A DNA stretch of 16,326 nt from Candidatus Desantisbacteria bacterium CG1_02_38_46. Its GTDB lineage: Bacteria > Desantisbacteria > UBA1551 > UBA1559. The position numbers and the translations under genes are program-made. Location: contig MNUO01000075.1 in NCBI GenBank assembly GCA_001871015.1, positions 1-16,326 of the forward strand. Reading direction: 5' to 3'. The notes below the pieces were generated by a model. It was not told where the DNA came from and ran no database searches. It saw only the letters and a list, made by a program, of their open reading frames with translations. This document shows positions 1 to 11,557 of this stretch, piece by piece (the first letter of the stretch is position 1; each line of letters opens with the position of its first letter).

Positions 1-226
1 AATAGAAAAAAGTTTTATTGAGGATAAATCTATGCCCATAAAGTTTTATAACTATAGCTACCTCAAAGACCAGATTTGGCGCAACTACAAGCAAAAGGTT
101 TCTTTACCAACAATTATCAATAGGGCAAAGAATCAGGGTTTTTATATTCCTCATAAAGAGAGAAAAATTCATGACAGAGAAGTATTAACTAATTATCCAG
201 GGGAATTACTCCTCTTCCACTTCCAG

Positions 227-262
227 AGTGCCTACTTTTGGCAGAGAGCCTACTTTTGGCAG
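227..262 (+). repeat. 18-bp tandem duplication inside the transposase relic
   Basis: Two adjacent 18-bp units, differing at one base, share the 15-bp core GCCTACTTTTGGCAG (230-244 and 248-262). They encode SAYFWQ-RAYFWQ. These residues sit in a stretch of about 17 that separates GELL from HDSSHH, two blocks normally almost contiguous in this transposase type, so the insertion is in frame. Confidence 0.75.
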
Positions 263-9828: not shown

Positions 9829-9837
9829 ACAAGTCCT

Positions 9838-9899
9838 ATTTATGTAGTGGCAGAGTTTACTCTGCCCAATGTCGAGCAAGCTCGACCACTACATCTTTA
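9838..9899. repeat. Mosaic REP unit 1 (two inverted GTAG hairpins)
   Basis: The 51-bp core (9843-9893) begins TGTAGTGG and ends with its reverse complement CCACTACA. Inside are two perfect 7-bp hairpins: GCAGAGT/ACTCTGC with a TT loop, and GTCGAGC/GCTCGAC with an AA loop. Each hairpin is preceded by GTAGTG on its own strand, so the unit is two REP elements in inverted orientation, as in a bacterial interspersed mosaic element. With flanks it is a perfect 62-bp copy of 9950-10011. Transcribed, it could fold as a cruciform or cloverleaf just ahead of the ftsW ribosome binding site. Confidence 0.85.
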
Positions 9900-9920
9900 G
9901 TAGTGGCAGAGTTTACTCTG
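9900..9920 (+). repeat. Single REP, first-hairpin type
   Basis: GTAGTGG followed by the CAGAGT/ACTCTG hairpin, without the second inverted half. It is a solitary REP in the same orientation as the left half of the two mosaic units. Confidence 0.8.
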
Positions 9921-9925
9921 TTAAT

Positions 9926-9947
9926 GTAGTGGCAGAGTTTACTCTGC
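9926..9947 (+). repeat. Single REP, first-hairpin type
   Basis: GTAGTG followed by the perfect GCAGAGT/ACTCTGC hairpin. It is a second solitary REP, 5 bp after the previous one. Confidence 0.8.
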
Positions 9948-9949
9948 AG

Positions 9950-10011
9950 ATTTATGTAGTGGCAGAGTTTACTCTGCCCAATGTCGAGCAAGCTCGACCA
10001 CTACATCTTTA
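9950..10011. repeat. Mosaic REP unit 2, overlapping the 3' end of murD
   Basis: This is a perfect second copy of the 62-bp unit at 9838-9899 (51-bp core 9955-10005). The murD frame enters it and ends at a TAA (9969-9971) in the loop and stem of the GCAGAGT hairpin. Residues VVVELARHWAE of MurD are therefore encoded by the repeat. Confidence 0.85.
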
Positions 10012-11534
10012 AAAATCCTGCCTCTCTCTTTATAATCTTTAAACATATCAAAACTGCTGCAAGCCGGTGAAAGAAGCACGGAATCTCCAGCCGTAGCAAG
10101 TCTGTTCGCTATTCCGACCGCTTCCTTCATATCTTTGACTTCTTTTATCCTGGAAACAATCTGAGGATTATAGTCAATTATAGCTTTTTTAATCCTGTTT
10201 TTTGCCTCACCTAACAGAAGAATATACTTCACTTTGTCCTCTAACAGAGGACCTAGTATGCTGTAATCTCCACCTTTATCTCTTCCGCCCGCAATCAATA
10301 TAATGGTTCGAGCCTGCTTGCCACCGGGTTCGCCTGTACTTTCTAATGCCCTCAGGACAGCATCTACATTAGTAGCCTTAGAATCATCAATAAATTTAAC
10401 TCCATTTATTTCAGCCACAAATTCAAGCCGATGTTCCAGTCCAGCAAATTCCTTCAGAATTTTTAATATACTCTCTGTCCTGACATTAAAAATAATTGCA
10501 GATGCAACTGCAGCAAGGACATTTTCTAAATTATGCACACCCTCTAGCCTAACATCACTAATGTTACAGATAAAATTATCATCACCTGAAATCCTTGCAA
10601 CAATCTGCCCATCTCTGATAAATACTCCTTCCTTAAGTGCACATTTTCTGCTGAATGGGATAATGCGGGCTTTTGCTCCCAAGGCAAGAGAGAAAGTCCG
10701 CGGACAATCCCTGTTAAGTATAGCGAAGTCTTCTGGCGTCTGATTTTGCAAAATACGCGCTTTTGCTTCAACATAGTCCTCAAATTTAGCGTATCGGTCA
10801 AGGTGGTCCTCAGTGATATTCAGAACTGTGGCAACCTTTGGCTTAAACTTACTTATGGTTTCTAATTGAAAACTGCTTACTTCACTGACAACTAATTCTG
10901 TATTGGTCCAGCTACCATCCGGATTAATAAAAGAACATAAAGGTTGCCCTATATTTCCACCCACAGCAACTTTCCATCCATCTGCCTCAAAAATTTTTCC
11001 AATCAATGCTGTAGTGGTAGTCTTGCCGTTAGTTCCTGTAATAGCAATGATGGGGACCGGAATATAATAAAAAGCCAGCTCAAGTTCTCCAATAATTGGA
11101 ACTCCACTGTCCTTCGCTTTTTTAAGGATGGGGATATCCAATGGAACACCCGGGCTTACAACAATTATATCTGATTCAGCCACCCTGTCAGAGTGACCGC
11201 CAAATTCCATTTCCACTCCACCTGGAACCATTCCAAGATAATCTCCCACCCCGATGTTACTTAGTTCTTCTTTCTTTTTGCTATCACTAAGAAGAACTAC
11301 GGCGTCCAGGTTGGACAATAATCGAGCAGCATACACTCCGCTTACACCCATTCCTAACACCGCTATTTTCTTATTTTGACATTTTATCGACATTTCTTTT
11401 GCAAGAAACAAGCTTTGCTTATTTTGACATTTTATCGACATTTCTTTTGCGAGAAACAAGCTTTGCTTATTTTGACATTTTATCGACATTTCTTTTGCGA
11501 GAAACAAGCTTTGCTTATTTTTAAATTCTATCAT
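9969..11534 (-). CDS. murD: UDP-N-acetylmuramoyl-L-alanine--D-glutamate ligase, repeat-modified at both ends
   Basis: This Mur ligase adds D-Glu to UDP-MurNAc-L-Ala. The UDP-binding fold opens KKIAVLGMGVSGVYAARLL, the ATP loop is GTNGKTTTT (167-175), and NITEDHLDRY, HRLEFVAEINGVKFIDDSKATN and LLSPACSSFDMFKDYKERG are family blocks. It has 521 residues against about 450 for the family. The excess is an N-terminal run of three 16-residue repeats (6-53) inserted after MIEFK. The last residues are encoded by a REP unit and differ from a normal MurD end. The ATG at 11532-11534 has GGAAG 4 nt upstream; internal ATGs in each repeat (Met16, 32, 48) have only weak purine-rich leads. It lies 23 bp after mraY. 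Confidence 0.95.
   Translation of the reverse strand: MIEFKNKQSLFLAKEMSIKCQNKQSLFLAKEMSIKCQNKQSLFLAKEMSIKCQNKKIAVLGMGVSGVYAARLLSNLDAVVLLSDSKKKEELSNIGVGDYLGMVPGGVEMEFGGHSDRVAESDIIVVSPGVPLDIPILKKAKDSGVPIIGELELAFYYIPVPIIAITGTNGKTTTTALIGKIFEADGWKVAVGGNIGQPLCSFINPDGSWTNTELVVSEVSSFQLETISKFKPKVATVLNITEDHLDRYAKFEDYVEAKARILQNQTPEDFAILNRDCPRTFSLALGAKARIIPFSRKCALKEGVFIRDGQIVARISGDDNFICNISDVRLEGVHNLENVLAAVASAIIFNVRTESILKILKEFAGLEHRLEFVAEINGVKFIDDSKATNVDAVLRALESTGEPGGKQARTIILIAGGRDKGGDYSILGPLLEDKVKYILLLGEAKNRIKKAIIDYNPQIVSRIKEVKDMKEAVGIANRLATAGDSVLLSPACSSFDMFKDYKERGRIFKDVVVELARHWAE
11370..11513. repeat. Three 48-bp tandem repeats inside the 5' end of murD
   Basis: Units are 11370-11417, 11418-11465 and 11466-11513, and the start of a further partial copy follows to about 11520. 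The last two are identical and the first differs by one base (A for G at 11403). As 48 is a multiple of three, the murD frame is preserved, giving NKQSLFLAKEMSIKCQ three times. Each unit carries an in-frame ATG and an internal AAGCTT. There are no unique spacers, so this is not a CRISPR array. Confidence 0.92.
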
Positions 11535-11557
11535 AGTTCTTCCAACACAATGGGGAT

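Follow-up and report, generated by a model that had tools for sequence, protein, structure and literature searches.

A dispersed palindromic element very probably inserted in frame and multiplied at the N-terminus of MurD in a Candidatus Desantisbacteria genome

The DNA analysed here (the window) is a stretch of 16,326 nucleotides of Candidatus Desantisbacteria bacterium CG1_02_38_46 that carries murD on the reverse strand, adjoining ftsW. Between the first five codons of murD and the codons for the Rossmann strand lies a tandem array of 48-bp units (Table 1), which Tandem Repeats Finder reports as a period-48 repeat at 11366-11532 with 3.5 copies, 95% matches and a score of 299, the highest in the window. 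The ORF translates as MIEFK-NKQSLFLAKEMSIKCQx3-NKKIAVLGMG. An earlier sequence-only reading had described this arrangement: three in-frame 48-bp units at the MurD N-terminus; MIEFK separated from NKKIAVLGMG by three 16-residue units just before the Rossmann strand; an ATG in every unit; and copies so alike that the array must be recent. Repeat finding and translation bear this out, with in-frame ATGs at residues 16, 32 and 48 and near-identity of the copies as listed in Table 1. Its suggestion that the unit ATGs could provide a choice of start codon fares less well: a plausible ribosome-binding site, a Shine-Dalgarno-like sequence (TTGGAAGAACTATG), precedes the first ATG only, and the internal ATGs are preceded by GCAAAAGAA.

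Table 1. Features of the murD array and its surroundings (window coordinates)
Feature	Position	Strand	Remarks
Array of three 48-bp units (AGCAAAGCTTGTTTCTCGCAAAAGAAATGTCGATAAAATGTCAAAATA)	11372..11515	-	Short form of dispersed family; codes 3 x 16 aa
Unit 1 of murD array	11468..11515	-	RNA-model match 11466-11520
Unit 2 of murD array	11420..11467	-	Identical to unit 1; RNA-model match 11418-11472
Unit 3 of murD array	11372..11419	-	One synonymous difference, CTC to CTT
TA, putative insertion point	11516..11517	-	Recurs at 3' end of every murD unit
murD (UDP-MurNAc-L-Ala:D-Glu ligase), 521 aa	9969..11534	-	Extension, residues 6-53
Shine-Dalgarno-like stretch (GTTGGAAGAACT) upstream of first murD ATG	11535..11546	-	From the sequence

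The gene is single-copy: it is the sole full-length MurD match in the genome, and the remaining matches are sister ligases of the same cluster. Pfam identifies Mur_ligase_M, Mur_ligase_C and MurD-like_N in the protein, the N-domain match beginning at residue 55, and PDB MurD chains align with it starting at residue 52. The catalytic and ATP-binding motifs are present (invariant alignment columns). In a structure model, pLDDT is mostly 85-97 in the core and about 43-53 in the extension (residues 1-50), and the catalytic core is predicted to be intact. Fixed 16-residue repeats in all relatives, which the sequence-only reading had named as evidence against itself, were not found: the MurD of the nearest relative (55% identical; named MurD relatives, ~45%) begins MDLKGKKISVLGMG and has no insert. 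At that distance, no empty murD site was found at the nucleotide level. Because the array is in frame, consists of near-identical copies and is absent from the MurD of relatives, it is a recent, lineage-specific gain.

At the other end of the gene, a second, GTAG-tagged repeat family (GTAGTGGTCGAGCTTGCTCGACATTGGGCAGAGTAAACTCTGCCACTAC) is arrayed where murD meets ftsW (window 9838-10005). This array encodes the last MurD residues (VVVELARHWAE); repeats therefore make up the two ends of this protein. The listed ftsW ORF begins at a TTG within it (window 9829-9879); the ftsW start is likely the ATG that follows the array (MKKISPDV).

We searched the genome (1.73 Mb in 133 contigs, 87.8% complete) for the 48-bp unit elsewhere, as the sequence-only reading had proposed, and found it dispersed. 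With the murD array as the query, BLAST returned 14 places; a core pattern had 45 exact matches (reversed control pattern: 9 at <=1 mismatch); and a covariance model had 53 matches at E<=0.05. The murD unit belongs to a dispersed palindromic element of about 50 copies, mostly intergenic, with the consensus TA-AGAACC-(variable hairpin)-GAACCTTGTT..TCG..CGTCG..GTC..AA-TA, in which the fixed boxes are TA-AGAACC, GAACCTTGTT, TCG, CGTCG and GTC-RN-AATA. Unit lengths are 45-90 bp. Hairpin 1 varies in sequence by locus (CTCTTCGAG, CTGTCGCCTCGGGCGACAG, CCCCGTCAATAATTAGTGGCGGGG and others), and the murD unit is a short form with this hairpin cut down to AAGCAAAGCTT; this same short form is also present singly on contigs C24, C10, C41 and C85. 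The repeat CAGAGAGCCTACTTTTGG, at window 224-262, recurs on C82, where it lies within the variable hairpin of a copy of the element (L155); other repeats therefore appear to nest in hairpin 1. Tandem arrays of two to three copies are present on C16, C49, C78, C85, C92, C105 and C109, with periods at other loci of 57, 58 and 66, so a tendency to tandem copies characterises the family and is not specific to murD.

Several copies lie within other genes. A ROK-family gene has an in-frame insert of 2x19 aa (QNKNLFENLVFRNKTSGVG): at this point its product has 43 residues against a 5-residue link in a PDB ROK chain, a surplus of 38, and the Pfam ROK match begins immediately after the insert. The gene mreD, identified by its position between mreC and the PBP2/rodA genes, carries one unit (1x16 aa), and a large PD40-repeat/beta-barrel-like (propeller/barrel) protein carries 3x22 aa, both in frame with the element antisense. 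All nine units within these four genes (murD, ROK, mreD and PD40/barrel) are multiples of three (48, 57, 66); among the other units of the genome the count is 11/35. The CarB of the same-order relative has 20 extra aa (CDRLSTFQSSNKVLSKTGSY) in the linker preceding the second synthetase half. Since the unit is dispersed genome-wide and occurs in frame in other genes, we consider it very probable that the murD array originated as an in-frame insertion of this palindromic element, multiplied, perhaps locally, to three head-to-tail copies.

Gene ends are also affected. At the 3' end of mfd (L172, C122), a 61-bp copy, whose length is not divisible by three, occupies the last codons and seems to have swapped the C-terminal tail. 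A copy upstream of a transporter-like gene (L010, C10:528-582) supplies the probable start codon of that gene (ATGGCAGATCAAAATAAA); new gene starts can thus come from copies as well.

An alternative for murD is that the array is untranslated, with MurD beginning at the ATG of the last unit (MSIKCQNKKIAVLG) and the copies forming a 5' untranslated element. The ATG in every unit and the mostly intergenic location of the family would allow this, and a survey of REPs cautions that REPs at N-termini may in many cases be extragenic (PMC3733652); but the 144 bp form an open frame continuous with the 5' codons for MIEFK, the Shine-Dalgarno-like sequence is placed at the first ATG only, and a later start cannot bypass the copies deep inside ROK, MreD and CarB. 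We regard an untranslated array as unlikely.

It could also be argued that the element is not selfish DNA but a functional RNA (acting at operon joints as an attenuator, processing site or stabiliser), its in-gene copies being accidental. Twelve of 35 arrays start exactly at the TAA stop codon of an upstream ORF (ORFs of >=50 codons counted), as do 5.4% of control TAAG sites; the remaining arrays are mostly intergenic, with several within genes. The element has two alternative stems with CTTGTT common to both, and in the 3' stem the base after CTTGTT pairs and covaries with the base before AATA (U-A 15, G-C 8, A-U 2 in 26 sequences), with 15 cells changed on both sides, a value reached in 0/500 shuffles. 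Against such a role, the in-gene copies occur in both orientations, no Rfam family matched the element, and hairpin 1 differs from copy to copy, which is why RNAalifold on the full element alignment returned no consensus structure. A functional RNA is thus improbable in our judgement.

The preferred reading, insertion of a dispersed element, draws further on other genomes. A strict pattern was found in 5/386 sampled genomes: 44 matches in this genome, 15 in its sole sampled same-order relative, 22 and 15 in two members of a family in another lineage, and a probable chance match in the fifth genome. On closer inspection the element is present in five of six members of that other-lineage family (22, 25, 15, 11 and 17 copies), and the sixth gives a weak covariance-model match. 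The 3' half of these copies differs in sequence, with the CTTGTT/AATAAG stem kept (by inspection). Viral contigs gave 50 pattern matches, nearly all chance as judged from their flanks, with one possible copy (L214), and no element was found in plasmid and phage records.

Filled and empty sites could be compared in two genes. An insert in RsmG is present in genomes G094 and G099 and absent from the congener G098, and also from G100 and G101; an insert in IspE is present in G094 and absent from its congener G099. On the element strand, the filled RsmG site reads CTCTAATA-AGAACC...GGCGTAA-TA-GGACC and the empty site CTCTAATAGGACC, the latter reconstructed from the sequence on either side of the insert in the filled gene; the aligned empty genes depart from this reconstructed site by a few substitutions. 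The gain is 63 bp, in frame, with TA or AATA on both ends. Both empty sites fit insertion at TA with duplication of the TA, a provisional reading because the sites are few (two empty sites plus the consensus ends). The RsmG insert (L301, L302) occupies the same site in two species of one genus and is absent from a third, and it may therefore predate the split of the two carrier species.

If the murD copy behaved as these related copies appear to have done, the element would have inserted at TA and left TA at both ends. The putative empty murD site is TTTAAAAATA|AGAAAATAGCG, and the target before insertion would be TTTAAAAATAAGAAAATAGCG, coding MIEFKNKKIAV; insertion at its TA would yield the observed sequence exactly, in frame. 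One copy could then have become three either through successive insertions or through duplication of an inserted copy, a step that slippage may explain. The insertion was presumably survivable because the unit length of 48 bp is divisible by three, one frame runs open through the unit, and the 48 residues gained would lie outside the folded core, N-terminal to it.

The three-copy count comes from one contig of a draft metagenome-type assembly, and false copies or junctions might be suspected given the contig number and completeness stated above, an array close to short-read length (144 bp) and Ns in another array of the same assembly (L020). We think an assembly artefact very unlikely, as short-form units occur singly elsewhere, unit 3 has its own substitution and the murD ORF is unbroken across the array. 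As an origin, pure replication slippage of MurD's own 5' codons, for which the tandem near-identical copies and 48-bp period might speak, is refuted and can hardly be credited, given dispersed relatives of the unit with common boundaries and MurD relatives that hold neither insert nor ancestral single unit. What stands of the expansion proposed in the sequence-only reading is the in-frame, near-identical array; what falls is its source, the unit being a dispersed genome-wide element and not MurD's own sequence.

The inserted element is probably a non-autonomous selfish sequence, moved by an enzyme supplied elsewhere. Y1/RAYT was rejected as a general mobiliser: matches to Y1_Tnp (PF01797) number 3 in this genome (G000) and 10 in its relative (G001), and there are none in the six genomes of the other lineage (f95). 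We put forward, tentatively, the wider possibility of an undescribed TA-inserting family without inverted ends, present in two distant lineages, with a freely changing hairpin and moved by some mobilising enzyme, that has repeatedly given in-frame segments to essential proteins (cell wall, cell shape, pyrimidine/isoprenoid synthesis, ribosome methylation). With filled/empty pairs one can ask by what route selfish DNA extends essential proteins; the element also offers a test of movement without inverted ends and of the possible neutrality of the peptides gained.

Most descriptions of protein-coding palindromes come from Rickettsia, Wolbachia and certain REP-rich genomes. The in-frame copies in MurD, ROK, MreD, PD40/barrel, CarB, RsmG and IspE give the present element the hallmark of such repeats (RPE/WPE class). 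RPE and intragenic REPs add segments to conserved proteins and provide stop codons (PMC2229807, PMC3733652, PMC10969869), and the presence of REP and Rickettsia elements in conserved genes (PMC3733652, PMC2229807) softens the earlier view that a repeat in an essential Mur ligase is unusual. RPE-1 and its relatives (Ogata et al. 2000) are short palindromes found in frame in unrelated conserved proteins and also between genes, about 105-150 bp long with 12-bp terminal inverted repeats, and N-terminal insertions occur (PMC2229807). Our element is likewise a palindromic repeat in frame within unrelated conserved proteins, with intergenic copies too, but it is shorter (45-90 bp), has a hairpin that varies, forms tandem in-frame copies and occurs in unrelated hosts. 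Its ends, AGAACC... and ...GTCRNAATA, are not inverted copies, so it lacks the terminal inverted repeats of both RPE and MITEs.

GTAG/CGTC REPs are small hairpins downstream of genes that carry stop codons, sometimes lie inside ORFs and are often grouped or in tandem (PMC3733652), all of which holds for the element; however, its aligned copies have TAAG, not GTAG. The CGTC REP has CGTC or TGTC at one end of an 8-9 bp stem, a 4-5 nt loop and a CCA tail (PMC3733652), whereas the invariant GTCG of the element is internal and is followed by neither a stem of this kind nor a CCA tail. No Y1 transposase came up in one of its host lineages. With TA-targeting MITEs such as RUP it shares TA at both ends, dispersal and probably a non-autonomous nature, and also, provisionally, a target-site duplication (filled RsmG has TA/AATA at either end, the empty sites a single one). 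RUP of pneumococcus is bounded by terminal inverted repeats and carries stops in each of the six frames (PMC2229807), whereas the element has no inverted ends and has open frames. Judged on its sequence features, the element falls outside RPE, GTAG REP, CGTC REP and classical MITE, each failing on a tested feature (ends, tag or inverted repeats). A literature search found no description of the family, which is weak evidence as subscription journals were poorly covered. The family is set apart by its different ends, tandem in-frame copies, congeneric filled/empty pairs and occurrence in two unrelated lineages.
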